From assembly GCF_028737255.1 (NCBI RefSeq), contig NZ_JAQZAN010000001.1, forward strand, positions 372,001-436,000: a DNA stretch of 64,000 bases, read 5' to 3'. The notes below the pieces were generated by a model that was not told the DNA's origin, searched no databases, and was given only the letters and a program-made list of their open reading frames with translations. Position 1 is the first letter of the stretch. The number at the start of each line of letters is the position of its first letter. Positions 18,714 to 57,627 of the stretch are shown piece by piece. Position numbers and translations under genes: made by a program. This DNA comes from Actinomycetospora straminea (GTDB taxonomy: Bacteria; Actinomycetota; Actinomycetes; Mycobacteriales; Pseudonocardiaceae).

Positions 18714-18991
18714 GCCACGATCTCCTCCTCGACCCGGATCGCCTCCTCCATCAGCAGATCGGCCAGTCGGACGAGGAAGGTCTCGTCGAGGCCGTGCGCC
18801 CGCGCGTGCTCCGCGGCCCGCCGCTCCACCTCGTCGGCGCGGCCGGGCTGGAACACGGGCATCCCGGCCCGCGCCTTCACCGCCCCGACCCGCTCGATGC
18901 AGCGCATCCGGTCGCGGACGAGGCCGTAGAGGGCCTCGTCGATGCCGTCGAGCTCGGCGCGCAGCGCCGCGAGCTCCTCCGCCGTGGTCAC
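18668..18991 (-). CDS. Chorismate mutase type II (AroQ-fold) protein
   Basis: A 107-residue all-helical protein. The sequence LRAELDGIDEALYGLVRDRMRCIERVGAVKARAGMPVFQPGRADEVERR has the AroQ pattern: Arg of helix 1, RxxxIxRVGxxKA with the catalytic Lys (AVKARAG), and the R of the following helix (RADEV), then helix 3 with VRLADLLMEEAIRVEEE. Family members convert chorismate to prephenate, or in secondary metabolism act as 4-amino-4-deoxychorismate mutases or isochorismate pyruvate lyases. A second AroQ-type gene lies at 34858, so this may serve a different chorismate branch. It starts at GTG 18991 and is divergent from the MFS/esterase operon. Confidence 0.8.
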   Translation of the reverse strand: MTTAEELAALRAELDGIDEALYGLVRDRMRCIERVGAVKARAGMPVFQPGRADEVERRAAEHARAHGLDETFLVRLADLLMEEAIRVEEEIVAQAGASAGPQNSPPT

Positions 18992-32038: not shown

Positions 32039-34561
32039 TCAGAGCTTCGTCAGCGGCACGCCGCCGATGAGCATCAGCCGCACGGTGCCCGAGGAGCCGA
32101 AGTCGATGGTGGCCGTGGCCCGCGAGCCGACGCCGTCGACGGTGACCACCGTGCCGAGGCCGTACTTGTCGTGGCTCACCCGGTCGCCGACGTCCAGCGA
32201 GATCGTCGGCGCCTCCTTCCAGTCCGGGCGCATCGGCGAGGGGCGCGAGGCCCGGCCGGACAGGTCGGTGCCGGGGCTCGCCCAGCGCCCGGAGCCGAAG
32301 CGGGTGCGCCCGACCGGCGAGGACCGCTCGGAGCTGGGCTCGACACGGCGCCACTCCCACACGTCGGCGGGCACCTCGTCGAGGAACCGCGACGGCGGGT
32401 TGGCCTGCGGCTGCCCGTACGCCGAGCGCATGACCGCGCGCGAGAGGTAGAGCCGCTGCTGGGCGCGCGTGATGCCGACGTAGGCGAGCCGGCGCTCCTC
32501 GGAGAGCTCGGCGGGGTCGGCGAGCGCCCGCGAGTGCGGGAAGACGCCGTCCTCCCAGCCGGTGGTGAACACGACCGGGAACTCGAGGCCCTTCGCGGTG
32601 TGCAGCGTCATCAGCGTGACCACGCCGTCGCCGCCGTCGGGGATCGAGTCGGCGTCGGCCACCAGCGACACCCGCTCGAGGAACGCCTCGAGCGAGCCCG
32701 GCACGGCCTGGCCGTCGGTGCCCTCGGCCTGCTCCACCGTCTGTTCCCCGGCGGCGTCCTCGACGCCCTCGGCGTTGAGCGCGTCCTGCACGAACTCGCG
32801 CGCGACGCTGACGAGCTCCTGCAGGTTCTCCAGCCGCGACTGCTCCTGTGGGTCCTCCGAGCCCTCGAGCTCGGCCCGGTAGCCCGAGCGGTCGAGGATC
32901 GCCTCGAGCACCTCGTCGACCGACGTGCCCTCGGCGACCAGCCCGGCGAGACCGTCGAGCATCTCGACGAAGTCGGCGATGTTGCGCTGCGAGCGCGTCG
33001 CCAGCCCGTGGACCTCGCCCGCGGCGGCCCGGCGCAGCGCGGCGGCGAAGGTGATGCGCTCGCGGTCGGCCGCGTCGGCGACCACCGACTCCGCACGGTC
33101 GCCGATGCCCCGCTTCGGCACGTTGAGGATGCGGCGCAGGGAGACCGTGTCCTCGGGGTTCGAGAGCACCTTGAGGTAGGCCATCGCGTCGCGGACCTCG
33201 CGGCGCTCGTAGAAGCGCACGCCGCCGACGATCTTGTACGGCAGCCCGAGGCGGATGAACACGTCCTCGAACACCCGCGACTGACCGTTGGTCCGGTAGA
33301 AGACCGCGACCTCGCCGAAGCGCGCCTCGCCCGCGTCGACCAGCCGGTCGATCTCGGCGGCGACGAACGCCGCCTCGTCGTGCTCGTTGTCGGCGACGTA
33401 GCCGACCACCAGCTCGCCGTCGCCCGCGTCGGTCCACAGCCGCTTGTCGCGACGGTCCGGGTTGCGGCTGATGACGGCGTTGGCGGCCGTGAGGATGCGC
33501 TGGGTGGAGCGGTAGTTCTGCTCGAGCAGGATGGTGCGCGCCTCGGGGTAGTCGCGCTCGAACTCGACGATGTTGCGGATGGTGGCGCCGCGGAAGGCGT
33601 AGATCGACTGGTCGGCGTCGCCCACCACGCACAGCTCGGCCGGGGGCACCGCGCCGTCCTCGCTGCCCGCCGCCAGGGCCCGGACCAGCATGTACTGCGC
33701 GTGGTTGGTGTCCTGGTACTCGTCGACCAGGATGTGCCGGAACCGGCGCCGGTAGTACTCGGCGACGTCGGGGAAGCGGGTCAGCAGGTCGACGGTGCGA
33801 CCGATGAGGTCGTCGAAGTCGAGCGAGTTCGACTGCTGCAGCCGCTGCTGGTAGACGGCGTAGACCTCGGCCGTGCGCTTCTCCGCCTCGGTGGCCGCGG
33901 CGTCGGCGGCCTCGATGGGCGAGACGAGCTCGTTCTTCCACGCCGAGATCCGGGCGAGCAGCCCGCGCGGCGAGTACTTCTTGGCGTCCAGGTCGAGCCC
34001 GCGCGCCACCGACGCGACGAGCCGCCGCGAGTCGTCGGCGTCGTAGATGGAGAACGTGGAGCTCAGCTCGAGGTGGCGGTACTCGCGGCGCAGGATGCGC
34101 ACGCACATCGAGTGGAACGTCGACACCCACATCGCGTTCGCCCGGCGACCCACCAGCGCGGCCACGCGCTCGCGCATCTCGGCGGCGGCCTTGTTGGTGA
34201 ACGTGATGGCCATGACCTGGCCCGGCCCGACGCCCTGGTGGCGCATCTGCCAGGCGATCCGGTGGGTGAGCACCCGCGTCTTGCCCGATCCGGCGCCGGC
34301 GACGATGAGCAGCGGCGACCCGGTGTGCACCACCGCCTCGCGCTGCGGGGGGTTCATGCCCTCGAGCAGCGGGTCGTCCGCCGGGTCGGGACGGTCGGTG
34401 TCGCGGCGCAGCGCGGCGCCGGCCCCCGCGTCGTCGCCGCCCGCGGCGGCCGCGGCCAGCCGCCGGGACAGGGCGGACGCCGCCGAACGCACGGGCGGGC
34501 CCGACCCGACGTCTGACGTGGTGTCGGACGCGGCGTGGCGGGTGGCGGGACCGGTGCTCAT
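32039..34561 (-). CDS. pcrA: ATP-dependent DNA helicase UvrD1/PcrA
   Basis: An 840-residue superfamily 1A 3'-5' helicase used in nucleotide excision repair and replication restart. Motif I is AGAGSGKT at residues 88-95, motif Ia ITFTNKAAAEMRER, motif II VDEYQDTN, motif III GDADQSIYAFRGA, motif IV QNYRSTQRIL, motif V LMTLHTAKGLEFPVVF and motif VI RRLAYVGITRAQQRL. A ~65-residue disordered N-terminal extension precedes the core. The C-terminal ~60 residues (DVGDRVSHDKYGLGTVVTVDGVG) form the Tudor-like RNA-polymerase-binding domain of UvrD1. ATG 34561 is the first good start. It is convergent with the M23 gene and divergent from the chorismate mutase leader. Confidence 0.97.
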   Translation of the reverse strand: MSTGPATRHAASDTTSDVGSGPPVRSAASALSRRLAAAAAGGDDAGAGAALRRDTDRPDPADDPLLEGMNPPQREAVVHTGSPLLIVAGAGSGKTRVLTHRIAWQMRHQGVGPGQVMAITFTNKAAAEMRERVAALVGRRANAMWVSTFHSMCVRILRREYRHLELSSTFSIYDADDSRRLVASVARGLDLDAKKYSPRGLLARISAWKNELVSPIEAADAAATEAEKRTAEVYAVYQQRLQQSNSLDFDDLIGRTVDLLTRFPDVAEYYRRRFRHILVDEYQDTNHAQYMLVRALAAGSEDGAVPPAELCVVGDADQSIYAFRGATIRNIVEFERDYPEARTILLEQNYRSTQRILTAANAVISRNPDRRDKRLWTDAGDGELVVGYVADNEHDEAAFVAAEIDRLVDAGEARFGEVAVFYRTNGQSRVFEDVFIRLGLPYKIVGGVRFYERREVRDAMAYLKVLSNPEDTVSLRRILNVPKRGIGDRAESVVADAADRERITFAAALRRAAAGEVHGLATRSQRNIADFVEMLDGLAGLVAEGTSVDEVLEAILDRSGYRAELEGSEDPQEQSRLENLQELVSVAREFVQDALNAEGVEDAAGEQTVEQAEGTDGQAVPGSLEAFLERVSLVADADSIPDGGDGVVTLMTLHTAKGLEFPVVFTTGWEDGVFPHSRALADPAELSEERRLAYVGITRAQQRLYLSRAVMRSAYGQPQANPPSRFLDEVPADVWEWRRVEPSSERSSPVGRTRFGSGRWASPGTDLSGRASRPSPMRPDWKEAPTISLDVGDRVSHDKYGLGTVVTVDGVGSRATATIDFGSSGTVRLMLIGGVPLTKL

Positions 34562-34660
34562 CGTCGGTCCACGCTACCGGGGCCCTCCGACAGTCGCGGC
34601 GGCGTGGCGGCCCGGGGAGGTCCACCGGGCGGCCGTTTGGTCGCACGCCGCGCCGATGGC

Positions 34661-34735
34661 ATGATGACCGCCGTGCGCGCGCAGTTTCGTCGATTTTTCT
34701 ACGGGTACCGGACCCCGGTGCCCGTGGTCAGCTGA
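34661..34735 (+). CDS. Aromatic leader peptide of the chorismate mutase transcript
   Basis: A 24-codon open frame, too short for routine gene calls, translating to MMTAVRAQFRRFFYGYRTP then VPVVS and a TGA at 34733. Within ten codons it has three Phe (TTT 34685, TTT 34694, TTC 34697) and two Tyr (TAC 34700, TAC 34706). Two of the Phe codons are TTT, which should be rare in this GC-rich genome. The run lies exactly where a stalled ribosome would mask strand 1 of the downstream attenuator, so its job is probably to sense charged tRNA-Phe and tRNA-Tyr. ATG 34664 is an alternative start. No strong Shine-Dalgarno is visible, and a leaderless transcript is possible. Confidence 0.7.
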   Translation: MMTAVRAQFRRFFYGYRTPVPVVS

Positions 34736-34785
34736 CGCGCCCGCCGCGCTGCCACGCCGCCCCGGAGTCCACGGACCCCGGGGCG
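34703..34785 (+). promoter_or_regulatory. Ribosome-mediated transcription attenuator before the chorismate mutase gene
   Basis: Three mutually exclusive structures. Hairpin 1:2: GGGTACCGG (34703-34711) pairs with CCGGTGCCC (34715-34723). Antiterminator 2:3: GGACCCCGG (34710-34718) pairs with CCGGAGTCC (34762-34770, one mismatch), CGTGG (34723-34727) with CCACG (34752-34756), and CAGC (34729-34732) with GCTG (34748-34751). Terminator 3:4: CGCCCCGG (34758-34765) with CCGGGGCG (34778-34785), extended by GTCC (34767-34770) and GGAC (34773-34776), followed by TTCTCGT. Stalling on the Phe/Tyr codons would free strand 2 for antitermination; normal translation to the stop would cover strand 2 and let the terminator form. 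No experimental evidence is available. Confidence 0.78.
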
Positions 34786-34857
34786 TTCTCGTGTCCGGGG
34801 TCGCGAGGGCCCACCGACCCGGGAACCACCCGGACACACCCTGGAGGCCGATCCCCC

Positions 34858-35220
34858 GTGAGTGCCGCGACCAGCTCCACCGACAGCCCTACCGACAGCG
34901 CCGCCGACGCCGGGTCCGAGGACGCATCCCCCGCGTCCACCGACGCGCCGGCCCCGCTCGCCCCGGCCACCGCCGACGAGATCCCCTCGCTGCGCGAGGA
35001 GATCGACGCGATCGACGCCGAGCTGCTGCGCCTCGTCAAGCGCCGCTCGGAGATCTCGCAGCGGATCGGGCTGGCGCGGATGGCCGCCGGCGGGCCCCGG
35101 ATCGTCTACAACCGCGAGATGCAGGTCCTCGCCCGGTTCCGCGACCTCGGGACCGAGGGCCGGGAGCTCGCCATGCTGCTGCTGCGTCTCGGGCGCGGGC
35201 GGCTGGGCGGTCGGGCCTGA
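34858..35220 (+). CDS. aroQ: Chorismate mutase, AroQ delta type
   Basis: A 120-residue protein with a ~38-residue Ser/Ala/Thr/Asp-rich leader, then the short AroQ-delta domain: SLREEIDAIDAELLRLVKRRSEISQRIGLARMAAGGPRIVYNREMQVLARFRDLG. Conserved Arg of helix 1, RRxEIxxRIGxARM with its catalytic-loop Arg, and RIVYNREM match the intracellular chorismate mutase Rv0948c of M. tuberculosis, which is nearly inactive until complexed with DAHP synthase. It makes prephenate for Phe and Tyr. GTG 34858 is preceded by GGAGG. The gene lies directly downstream of the Phe/Tyr attenuator, which fits end-product control. It is divergent from pcrA as in mycobacteria. Confidence 0.88.
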   Translation: MSAATSSTDSPTDSAADAGSEDASPASTDAPAPLAPATADEIPSLREEIDAIDAELLRLVKRRSEISQRIGLARMAAGGPRIVYNREMQVLARFRDLGTEGRELAMLLLRLGRGRLGGRA

Positions 35221-43956: not shown

Positions 43957-45883
43957 GCCCGTTCGAGGACGGCGGCACGTCCAGCGTGGGGTTGCGGTCG
44001 AAGAACCCGACGGGCATCAGCCGGAAGCCGGCGTAGTCGACGGGCATGATCGGCCAGTCCTCGGGCCGCGGCACGTGGGTCAGGCCGAAGGTGTGCCAGA
44101 GGACGACGTCGGCGCCCCGGCCGTCCTCGTCGAGGCTCCGGTCGGCGGCGGTCCAGGTCGGGAGGCCGGCGCCGCCCGGGTGCTGGTTCACGTGGTCACC
44201 CGCGGGGTAGCGCTCGTCGGCGTCGTACGCGGTGACCCAGAGGTGCCGTGTCGCGAAGGCCGCCCGGCCCGCGACCACGGAGGTGGGGTCCGAGAGCAGC
44301 GTCGGGCTCCCCTCCGCGTGCAGCGCGTACCCGACGGGGCGGCCGAACCGGTTGGTCCTGCCCGGGTTGACGACCTGCCAGCTCCGGTTGCTCGCCGGGT
44401 TCGCCAGGCGCGCGGCGTCCGACTCGCGGGTCAGGCGCGTGCGCGACTCCACGAACGCGTTGCCCCACGGGTTGTCCTCGCCGACGGGCAGCGCGACCGC
44501 CTCGACCTCCTCCACCGCGTTCGCGGTGCCGTCGACGGTCATGTCGAGGCGGGCCGAGAACAGGTGCTGGTGGAACGGCAGCCCGAGCCCGGGCGCGGCC
44601 TCGGTGGCGAACCGGTGCTCGCCCGACGGCATCCCCGAGGTGAACGGGATGCCGGTCAGCTTGGCCTCGCACTCGATCGTGCCGTCGAGGTAGAGGTACC
44701 AGTAGAAGCCGTAGTCGTAGTTGCCGATGGTGGTGAAGAACGAGACCACCATGCGGCGCTGGCGACGGGTCTCCTGCGCGTTCGTGAAGAGGTCGGTGTG
44801 CTTCCAGAGCACCCCGTAGTCCTCCTCGTGCAGGCAGATCGCGTTGGTGATGGTGCGCGGCTCGCCGAGGTCGTCGGCCACCACGACGTCCATGTACCGG
44901 ATCTCGCCCAGGCAGTCGCAGCCGAGCTCGAGGGAGTTGGCGTAGCGGGCGAACATGTACTCGCCGGCGTCGAAGTAGTTCTGCCAGAAGCGCACCGGCG
45001 ACGGGTCGCCGTAGGGCACGACCATCTCGGCGATCGACGCGCGGTAGATCACCGGACGGCCGTGGATGCCGATCTGGTGCAGGGTCAGGCCCTCGCGCTC
45101 GTTGAACCCGATCCGCAGGTCCCAGCCCTCCCACCGCAGGCGGTTGCCCTCGAGGGTGAAGCTGACGCCCTCGGGCTGGGTGATCTCGATCGGCTTGAGC
45201 GTCGTGCGCTGCGGGCCGACCTGCTCGGGGTCGTCGAAGTTGCCCGGCTCGTCGGGGACGGCGATCTCGGCGTGGTCGATGACCCGGGTGACCTCGCGGG
45301 CGATGAGGTCGATGTAGGCGACCAGGCCGTCCACGGGGTGGGCCCAGGGCGAGTCCTTCTCGTGGTCCTGGCGGAAGCCCAGCACCCGCGCCATGCGGTG
45401 CCCGACCTCCTCCGGGTAGTAGGCGCCGGCCGACAGCGGCACGGCGCGCACCGCGTCGGGGTCGATGCCGCGACGGGTCAGGGCGTCGCGCCACTCGTCG
45501 GAGGTGTTGACGATCCCCTCGATGATCTCGAACTCGGCGTCGATGATCGGGAGCTGGCCGCTGGTGGCCGGGTCGAGCTCGACGGCCGAGTCGACCTCGC
45601 GGCGGGTGGCGGAGACGACGACGTCGCGCGACGGCGCCCCGCTCATGTCGAGCAGCAGCACGCGGAAGCGCCGGTCGATCGGGTCGCCGTCGGTGTGGGC
45701 GAGCACGGTGGCCTTGTCGGGCTCCTCGAGACCGGCGAAGCAGAACCGCACGGCCTCGCCGAGCAGCCCGGCGTCGGCCAGCACCTCGCGGACCGTGCGG
45801 AACTCCTCCGAGGTGGCCATGTCCAGCGGATGCGTGGCGGCGCCGGGGGCGACGCCGGTGGACGTGGGGGCGGTGGCGGTCAC
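43946..45883 (-). CDS. Copper-containing primary amine oxidase
   Basis: A 645-residue copper amine oxidase, which deaminates primary amines (tyramine, phenylethylamine, histamine or polyamine-like) to aldehyde, ammonia and H2O2. TPQ forms at Tyr389 in TIGNYDYGFYWYLYLDG (NYDY motif), the catalytic base is the Asp of YFDAGEYMFARYANSLELGCDCLGEIRYMD, and two copper His are in LPFHQHLFSARLD; the third is downstream, near TFGLTHVP. The protein has no signal peptide, so it is cytoplasmic. GTG 45883 follows AGGAGG with 7-base spacing. It is 50 bases downstream of an APC permease gene, which likely supplies the amine. Confidence 0.95.
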   Translation of the reverse strand: MTATAPTSTGVAPGAATHPLDMATSEEFRTVREVLADAGLLGEAVRFCFAGLEEPDKATVLAHTDGDPIDRRFRVLLLDMSGAPSRDVVVSATRREVDSAVELDPATSGQLPIIDAEFEIIEGIVNTSDEWRDALTRRGIDPDAVRAVPLSAGAYYPEEVGHRMARVLGFRQDHEKDSPWAHPVDGLVAYIDLIAREVTRVIDHAEIAVPDEPGNFDDPEQVGPQRTTLKPIEITQPEGVSFTLEGNRLRWEGWDLRIGFNEREGLTLHQIGIHGRPVIYRASIAEMVVPYGDPSPVRFWQNYFDAGEYMFARYANSLELGCDCLGEIRYMDVVVADDLGEPRTITNAICLHEEDYGVLWKHTDLFTNAQETRRQRRMVVSFFTTIGNYDYGFYWYLYLDGTIECEAKLTGIPFTSGMPSGEHRFATEAAPGLGLPFHQHLFSARLDMTVDGTANAVEEVEAVALPVGEDNPWGNAFVESRTRLTRESDAARLANPASNRSWQVVNPGRTNRFGRPVGYALHAEGSPTLLSDPTSVVAGRAAFATRHLWVTAYDADERYPAGDHVNQHPGGAGLPTWTAADRSLDEDGRGADVVLWHTFGLTHVPRPEDWPIMPVDYAGFRLMPVGFFDRNPTLDVPPSSNGHCH

Positions 45884-56302: not shown

Positions 56303-57627
56303 GCGACCGCACGCCCGCCCCCACCCCCACCGCCGCGGACGCCCGCCGCGTCGCGGTCGGCGCCTTCGTCGGCACCGCGTTCGAGTGGTACGACTTCTTC
56401 CTCTACGGCACCGCCGCGTCGCTGGTGTTCAACCGCCTGTTCTTCGCCACCGACGACGCCGTCGTCGCGACCCTCGCCGCGTTCGCGTCGTTCGCCGTCG
56501 GCTTCGTCGCCCGGCCGCTGGGCGGGATCGTCTTCGGCCACCTCGGCGACCGGATCGGCCGGCGCGCGTGCCTGCTCATCACCGTCGTGATGATCGGCGC
56601 CGTCACCGGCCTCATCGGGGTGCTCCCGGGGTTCGCCGACATCGGCGTCGCCGCGCCGGTGCTGCTGACGCTGCTGCGCCTGCTGCAGGGCGTCGCGGTC
56701 GGCGGCGAGTGGGGCGGGGCGATCACGCTCGCCGTCGAGCACGCCCCGCCGGAGAAGCGCGGGCGCTACGCGGCGATGCCGCAGATCGGGTCGCCGGTGG
56801 GGACGCTGCTGTCGTCCGGGGCGTTCCTGCTGGTCGCGCTGCTGCCGCCCGAGGACTTCGACGCCTGGGGCTGGCGCATCCCGTTCCTCGTCGCCTTCCC
56901 GCTGCTCGGGGTGGCGCTGTGGCTGCGCCGGCGCGTCGAGGAGTCGCCGCTGTTCGACCGCCTGCTCGCCGAGGACGCCCGCGCCTCGGCGCCGGTCACG
57001 CAGGTGGTCACCGGGGCGTGGCCCGCGCTGCTCGTCGGGGCCGGGTCGGCGCTGCTCGGGGTCGGCGGCTTCTACCTCGCCACCACGTTCGTCATCAGCT
57101 ACGCCACCGGCGACCTCGACCTGCCGCGCCCGCTCGCCCTGGGCGCGACGCTCGTCGCCGCAGTGGTCGAGATCGGCGTGCTCGTCCTGGGCGGGCGGCT
57201 CGCGGAACGCTTCGGGGCCGCGCGCGTCACGGTCGCCGGCGGCATCGCCTCCGCCCTCGTGGCGCTGCCGATGTTCTGGCTGCTCGACACCCGCAACGGC
57301 GTCGCCGTGGTGCTCGGCGTGACGCTCGGCGTCGCCATGCTCTCGATCCCCTACGCCGTCTCCGGCGACCTGCTCGCGCGGCTCTTCCCGGCGCGCCTGC
57401 GCTACAGCGGCATCGCGCTCGCGGCCAACCTCGCCGGGATCGTGTCGGGCTTCGTGCCGCTGGTCGCCACCGCCGTGCTCGCGGCGGCCGGGGGCGGGTC
57501 GTGGGCGCCGGGGCTGCTGCTGGTCGGCATCGCCCTGGTCACCGTGGTCAGCGGCCTGCTCGCGCCGCGGCTCTACGTGCCGGAGGCGGAGATGACCACC
57601 GAGGGCGTGGCCCGATCGCGGGCCTGA
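56299..57627 (+). CDS. MHS family MFS transporter (metabolite:H+ symporter)
   Basis: A 442-residue permease with 12 helices. FVGTAFEWYDFFLYGTAASLVFN is the MHS N-terminal signature, GGIVFGHLGDRIGRRACL is MFS loop motif A, and GGEWGGAITLAVEHAPPEKRG the conserved loop. Family members import shikimate, proline/betaine, alpha-ketoglutarate or similar organic acids. ATG 56299 overlaps the amidohydrolase stop (ATGA), so the operon has four genes. It is convergent with an aminotransferase gene with only six bases between stops and no terminator hairpin. Confidence 0.9.
   Translation: MSDRTPAPTPTAADARRVAVGAFVGTAFEWYDFFLYGTAASLVFNRLFFATDDAVVATLAAFASFAVGFVARPLGGIVFGHLGDRIGRRACLLITVVMIGAVTGLIGVLPGFADIGVAAPVLLTLLRLLQGVAVGGEWGGAITLAVEHAPPEKRGRYAAMPQIGSPVGTLLSSGAFLLVALLPPEDFDAWGWRIPFLVAFPLLGVALWLRRRVEESPLFDRLLAEDARASAPVTQVVTGAWPALLVGAGSALLGVGGFYLATTFVISYATGDLDLPRPLALGATLVAAVVEIGVLVLGGRLAERFGAARVTVAGGIASALVALPMFWLLDTRNGVAVVLGVTLGVAMLSIPYAVSGDLLARLFPARLRYSGIALAANLAGIVSGFVPLVATAVLAAAGGGSWAPGLLLVGIALVTVVSGLLAPRLYVPEAEMTTEGVARSRA

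Follow-up and report, generated by a model that had tools for sequence, protein, structure and literature searches.

The window analyzed here (the whole stretch of 64,000 nucleotides from Actinomycetospora straminea) encodes a chorismate mutase whose gene is separated by an intergenic region from a pcrA-type helicase gene on the opposite strand (Table 1). The mutase gene lies directly 3' of a short frame rich in Phe and Tyr codons, as the original prediction had it, and its product is confirmed as AroQ-type by NF005894 and TIGR01808. The best matches of the protein among solved structures are 6ygt and 2qbv, the latter named Rv0948c. Chorismate mutase carries out the committing step from chorismate to Phe and Tyr. 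Two more CM_2 (PF01817) proteins are encoded in the same genome (window positions 18725-18964 on the minus strand and G000:C33:75166-75399), and no aromatic leader was seen upstream of either. A model of the leader has a single strong match in this genome (E 2.3e-27) among 15 matches at E up to 10. A second attenuator copy in the genome was considered and rejected: two of the 15 are the opposite strand of the strong one, and two of the weak full-length matches, on reading, were taken by eye as chance, one in a tRNA region and one where a small heat-shock-like gene ends.

Table 1. Features of the chorismate mutase locus and its proposed attenuator (window coordinates)
Feature	Position	Strand	Basis or remark
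pcrA-type helicase gene	32039-34561	-	NCBIfam above cut-off; other flank of the attenuator's intergenic region
-35-like hexamer TTGGTC	34637-34642	+	17 bases 5' of the -10 box
-10 box CATGAT	34660-34665	+	lineup of loci by eye; scan of 175 loci without regard to frame
Leader ORF, GTG start, 20 codons, MRAQFRRFFYGYRTPVPVVS	34673-34735	+	probably leaderless; start 7 nt past the -10 box
Sensing codons	Phe TTT 34685, Phe TTT 34694, Phe TTC 34697, Tyr TAC 34700, Tyr TAC 34706	+	
Hairpin 1	arms 34701-34711 and 34715-34725	+	-20 kcal/mol, z -4.4, 0/200 shuffles as good
Antiterminator, inner helix	34710-34718 with 34762-34770	+	one C-A mismatch
Antiterminator, outer helix GUGG:CCAC	34724-34727 with 34752-34755	+	compensatory changes on tree
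Terminator hairpin	34758-34785	+	-22 kcal/mol, z -4.0, 0/200 shuffles as good
Terminator tail, U-enriched but interrupted	34786-34794	+	
Possible third hairpin, terminator 3' arm with CCGGGGUC (34795-34802)	34774-34802	+	exclusive with the terminator
Shine-Dalgarno-like GGAGG of the chorismate mutase gene	34843-34847	+	read in sequence
AroQ-type chorismate mutase gene (Rv0948c type), 120 aa, GTG start	34858-35220	+	NCBIfam NF005894 and TIGR01808 above cut-off

Judging from the sequences compared, GTG 34673 is the most likely start of the leader, which then has 20 codons in place of the 24 counted from ATG 34661 in the earlier proposal. That ATG lies inside the -10 box, here as in some congeners, and is missing in the rest, and we rejected it because GTG 34673 alone is the start common to 17 genus loci. 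The transcript is probably leaderless, with its 5' end at the GTG. The three Phe and two Tyr codons said to fall within ten codons are indeed present, and span eight codons from first to last. None of 5000 dinucleotide shuffles of 34562-34857 reaches five Phe/Tyr in a stop-free 10-codon stretch. Elsewhere in the 64 kb, five Phe/Tyr in ten open codons occur only near 56377 (plus strand) and at 44713-44725 (minus strand).

The distance between promoter and frame is conserved. In a lineup of 41 loci, the -10 box is followed by 6-7 bases and then GTG (rarely ATG); the -35 position of congeners holds, by eye, sequences such as TTGGCG or CTGACA. We also scanned 175 loci (75 from the family, 20 from the order, and 80 from named genomes) for starts without regard to frame, using the pattern CANANT, then 5-9 bases, then GTG or ATG. 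The start candidates were in frame with the FFY codons in 141 cases versus 4 out of frame, and every one of the 138 loci (of 175) with any candidate had an in-frame one, although these counts are not independent events because the loci are related. A looser box gave candidates in 167/175 loci (178 in frame versus 26 out). With 5-9 nt allowed, the box-to-start spacing was 6-7 nt in 139/141 in-frame cases; the in-frame distance from start to Tyr takes nine values, from 18 to 72 nt. Sixteen mycobacterial loci without a start near FFY have the conserved box and a GTG farther upstream, in frame and separated from FFY by additional codons. Mycobacterial loci such as L153, L168, and L190 carry added in-frame codons between the GTG and FFYGY, with box and core unchanged.

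Hairpin 1 is present as originally claimed, although it starts in the first Tyr codon (34700-34702) and not in the last aromatic codon, which sits within its 5' arm. Both antiterminator helices fall inside the ranges given at the outset (34710-34732 with 34748-34770); the inner helix has its C-A mismatch at a site that is U-A in 52/75 family rows. The terminator hairpin was recovered at the expected position with a significantly low folding energy (Table 1), and it does share a strand with the antiterminator: 34762-34770 enters both, in mutually exclusive pairings. At equilibrium in the window with hairpin 1 masked, the terminator is favored at -22.3 versus -16.2 kcal/mol for the antiterminator. 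Given that the terminator wins even in the stalled state, the switch would have to be kinetic, with the order of synthesis deciding the outcome.

An anchored scan, run without a shuffled control, found a GC-rich hairpin after the leader in 175/175 loci (median -20.6 kcal/mol, with a mean of 4.27 T among the 9 bases that follow); some of its picks are imperfect, and those in L128 and L132 are odd. It supersedes a scan in which ten loci gave no hairpin and others a wrong one, and whose native median was -20.0 versus -13.2 kcal/mol in 40 shuffles. The possible third hairpin joins the 3' arm of the terminator to a conserved GGGG stretch downstream, and folds at -19.3 kcal/mol (z -3.8, 1/200 shuffles as good). 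Swapping its arms between loci costs 1.65 kcal/mol of pairing, compared with about 0.3 in reversed controls, a modest effect in a test that ignores kinship.

The original prediction named a lack of conservation of the frame or stems in relatives as refuting it, and the opposite was found across the family and the order. In the genus, AroQ occurs in 17/18 genomes and a Phe/Tyr leader at 17/17 of these loci. Over the family, AroQ is present in 149/150 genomes, and the leader precedes it in 76/76 loci read, covering 46/46 genera (L078 has a variant form). At the level of the order, model R1 matches 257/298 genomes at E up to 0.1, weak matches included. All 20 loci taken from strong R1 places in nine further families have the leader, and all 20 have AroQ downstream (19 with the first query, and L117 with nearer queries). 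The 19-mer GATTTTTCTACGGGTACCG occurs in at least 118 stretches among named genomes; the matches listed include Mycobacterium, Mycolicibacterium, Rhodococcus, and Pseudonocardia, and 79 of the 80 listed exact matches have AroQ downstream, with the remaining one (L165) stopping at a contig border.

There are exceptions within the order. AroQ was sought in 22 order genomes, of which 19 lack an R1 match and three (G234, G301, and G389) have a weak one, and found in 17. Of the 15 AroQ loci judged by eye, seven have a Phe/Tyr or Phe-rich leader. No clear aromatic leader was seen at the eight AroQ loci that belong to family f8 (some of these genomes have weak model matches elsewhere), the one family with losses. 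Upstream of AroQ in L270 and L273 (family f8, genus g65), where an aromatic leader was not seen, another short stretch around GTCTGTTTCACGGTGAA looks common to both. In genome G228, AroQ and a weak R2 match are at separate places.

At E up to 0.001, models R1 and R2 match 22/148 and 32/148 class genomes, respectively, and these counts include order members, so detection beyond the order is patchy and confined to a minority. In the phylum, 16/100 genomes matched. Among 23 loci read from the class and phylum searches, 17 precede AroQ (four of them in order members) and six precede a type I DAHP synthase. Starting instead from the gene, we found AroQ in 19 of 79 class genomes; the 14 new class AroQ loci that were read comprise, by eye, seven with clear leaders, five with a short frame holding a single FY, and two with none. 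Overall, the frame, the promoter spacing, the stems, and the downstream gene are kept over family and order, and beyond it they have diverged and occur in part of the genomes only.

An alignment of relatives had been expected to reveal both a Phe/Tyr frame and covarying stems. This holds for the frame, hairpin 1, and the outer antiterminator helix, to a smaller extent for the terminator, and, on trees, fails for the inner antiterminator helix. In alignment A3 (73 rows), hairpin 1 and the terminator together have 55 cells changed on both sides versus 17.8 in shuffles, and the inner antiterminator has 41 versus 11.9. Trees built from AroQ remove part of the kinship problem. On the tree used for hairpin 1, the terminator, and the inner antiterminator (69/73 rows, ten with short AroQ pieces), we counted 15 double compensatory changes in hairpin 1 (0-4 in slid controls) and 5 in the terminator (0-3 in slid controls). 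The inner antiterminator showed no excess there (2 versus 1-4 in slid controls), and had none on the family tree. The outer antiterminator helix has 7 on the family tree (0 in slid controls), which covers 65/75 rows, many from short AroQ pieces at a lax E-value. Because the 3' strand of the outer helix is part of neither the terminator nor hairpin 1, these changes speak for the antiterminator itself. For the inner helix, pairing is kept and the arm-swap test is positive: antiterminator arms pair 3.2 kcal/mol better with their own partners than when swapped between loci (0/2000 permutations as good), and reversed-arm controls are 0.7 kcal/mol worse, in a test that ignores kinship and is controlled by the reversed arms. 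L078 is not among the aligned rows, since the anchor does not fit its leader, RYFARGFRTPAPVVA.

The RNA also outlasts the peptide. Four of the 75 aligned family loci (L037, L047, L056, and L025) have frameshifts after FFYG, three by single-base deletion and one by insertion, and all keep the RNA arms. This indicates that RNA, and not the peptide beyond FFYG, is under selection. Comparison of loci supports the predicted leader and the frame it is read in, its association with the mutase gene, and the stems, among which hairpin 1 and the outer antiterminator fare best.

The codon content of the leaders fits the product of the pathway branch. All 71 traced family leaders (from 75 gene-anchored loci) contain both Phe and Tyr codons, as do 167/167 traced leaders from the 175 loci, where it should be noted that the 80 named loci were chosen by a 19-mer that includes FFY and the 71 family leaders were not. 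Residues of the family leaders are 11.4% Phe, 8.4% Tyr, and 0.1% Trp; Trp occurs in 2/71 family leaders and in 16/167 of all mutase leaders. TTT accounts for 87/155 Phe codons in the gene-anchored family leaders and for 0/41 in four long frames of the window (over all sets it is 187/355, with the named set chosen by a TTT-containing pattern). TTT may be a slow codon that makes the sensor stronger; alternatively, the run of U may have a role as RNA.

In our view, the chorismate mutase gene is very probably controlled by ribosome-mediated transcription attenuation, with the charging of tRNA-Phe and tRNA-Tyr as the signal. The arrangement of leader and stems fits classical attenuation, because a ribosome stalled at FFY would mask the 5' arm of hairpin 1, and one at UGA 34733 would mask the antiterminator strand. 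Transcription would start at GTG 34673, and the ribosome would begin on the bare 5' end. A shortage of Phe or Tyr would make it stall at UUU UUC UAC and cover that arm; the freed 34710-34727 would then pair with 34752-34770 before the terminator 3' arm is made, allowing read-through into aroQ. When Phe and Tyr are plentiful, the ribosome would reach the UGA, and the terminator would form. If there is no translation, hairpin 1 would form, leading to termination too. The transcript start, the stalling, the termination, and the response to Phe and Tyr are what we infer from this arrangement of sequence elements.

Several other explanations deserve consideration. The stems might hide or expose the aroQ start, so that the output is something other than termination. 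The U tail is poor and broken in the window, and for the Cys leaders of mycobacteria the available text of PMC13236596 describes attenuation of translation. However, the GGAGG of aroQ lies 57 nt past the end of the terminator and 40 nt past the third hairpin, and TTTT directly follows the hairpin in 11/20 fetched order loci, making control of translation unlikely. Somewhat less credible still is Rho-dependent attenuation, with stalling or its absence exposing a Rho site and the hairpin being merely protective. Few Rho-independent terminators are reported in Mycobacterium (PMC1262725, as far as its accessible text goes), and in some Actinobacteria they are the lowest among phyla (PMC2965389, likewise), but this has to be set against the GC-rich, T-followed hairpin that the scan, which had no shuffled control, picked at every locus.

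The leader peptide is strikingly conserved, which would suit an arrest peptide, with the sequence of the FFYGxRTPxPV tail itself causing the stall and the signal being something besides tRNA charging. We consider this very unlikely, because the four frameshifted leaders alter the peptide after FFYG and retain the RNA, the conserved codons coincide with an antiterminator strand, and Streptomyces-like leaders read FxFTYGxRPxGC. Chance, or an unrelated conserved sequence (e.g., a protein-binding site), has in its favor only that the core is highly conserved. The shuffles of the intergenic region, the in-frame spacing from box to codons, and the compensatory changes leave that reading with a negligible probability. 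Attenuation of transcription by a ribosome reading Phe and Tyr codons is the interpretation that we favor.

Related systems are known, and they differ in specific ways. The aroR leader before aroF (DAHP synthase) in Corynebacterium glutamicum contains Phe-Tyr-Phe and acts by transcription attenuation, according to the available parts of PMC11802643 and PMC4046766. So far as those parts describe it, aroR resembles the window leader in its aromatic codons, transcription attenuation, aromatic pathway, and actinobacterial host, and differs in preceding DAHP synthase rather than chorismate mutase. In Neshat et al. (2014), the aroR leader is reportedly leaderless. At L276, which belongs to the one genome that has the nearest mutase to PDB 5hub (a C. 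glutamicum protein), an aromatic leader was not seen upstream of the mutase. Another attenuator of the aromatic pathway is pheL-pheA of Escherichia coli (PMC11802643, in the text available). It shares with the window a Phe leader, chorismate mutase activity downstream, and the same logic. However, pheL-pheA has a leader for Phe only, led by a Shine-Dalgarno sequence, and a fused mutase-dehydratase, and is proteobacterial.

The trpL, ilvL, and leuL leaders of Streptomyces and Corynebacterium, and ilvB1 of Mtb, are also short, with cognate codons and overlapping stems, but serve other amino acids, and most S. lividans leaders of this type, as well as ilvB of C. diphtheriae, are leaderless (PMC8079986, PMC5784534, and PMC13236596, for the portions available). 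None of the eight S. lividans leaders in Table 4 of PMC8079986, the part of that paper at hand, is a Phe or Tyr leader. The polycysteine leaders described in mycobacteria (Canestrari et al. 2020; PMC9094748, PMC13236596, in the accessible text) are likewise leaderless regulatory short frames, but read cysteine and are described as translation attenuation. In a 2005 survey of Actinobacteria, the available text reports no conserved structures before amino acid pathway genes besides Trp, Cys, and Leu (PMC1262725). Rfam 15, including its leaders and T-boxes, has nothing in the window at gathering score, and its four matches are far below it (E 0.11 to 9.6). The open-licence literature, a scope that most subscription papers and supplements fall outside, gave no account of an attenuator before an Rv0948c-type mutase gene, and neither did the available text of PMC11133741. 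Thus, an attenuator before chorismate mutase that is widespread in actinobacteria is most likely undescribed, although an earlier notice elsewhere is possible.

The six DAHP synthase loci (L295, L298, L299, L300, L301, and L302) have aromatic leaders and a GC-rich hairpin before a type I DAHP synthase, assigned by tblastn in all six and by family scan in two. L295 is from the class and the other five are from elsewhere in the phylum; L301 and L302 belong to one genus and are nearly alike. Five of the six leaders include Trp besides Phe/Tyr (e.g., MKRYFWFFGTSGHPGAFAL), and Trp is rare in mutase leaders, a distribution that matches the pathway. The scan found no aromatic leader at the type II DAHP synthase of the A. 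straminea genome itself. Tentatively, one ancestral leaderless aromatic attenuator could have spread in Actinomycetota and moved between the two entry points of the pathway, its codons matching the branch (Phe/Tyr for the mutase, and Phe/Tyr/Trp for DAHP synthase), with the conserved third hairpin perhaps locking the read-through state; we regard this scenario as possible rather than probable. In mycobacteria and corynebacteria, the mutase and DAHP synthase form a complex. Consequently, an attenuator that acts on one of the two could govern the flux through both; for the type I DAHP synthases found here this would be an extrapolation.

Control of actinobacterial chorismate mutase is described at the enzyme level, through the complex with DAHP synthase and inhibition by Phe (PMC11802643, in the text available). 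If our interpretation is correct, a conserved attenuator would add control of expression to this enzyme in a group with mycobacteria and antibiotic producers among its members. It would also offer metabolic engineers a defined switch, and the many natural, probably leaderless attenuators would serve for the study of stalling, as well as of termination without a clean U tract.
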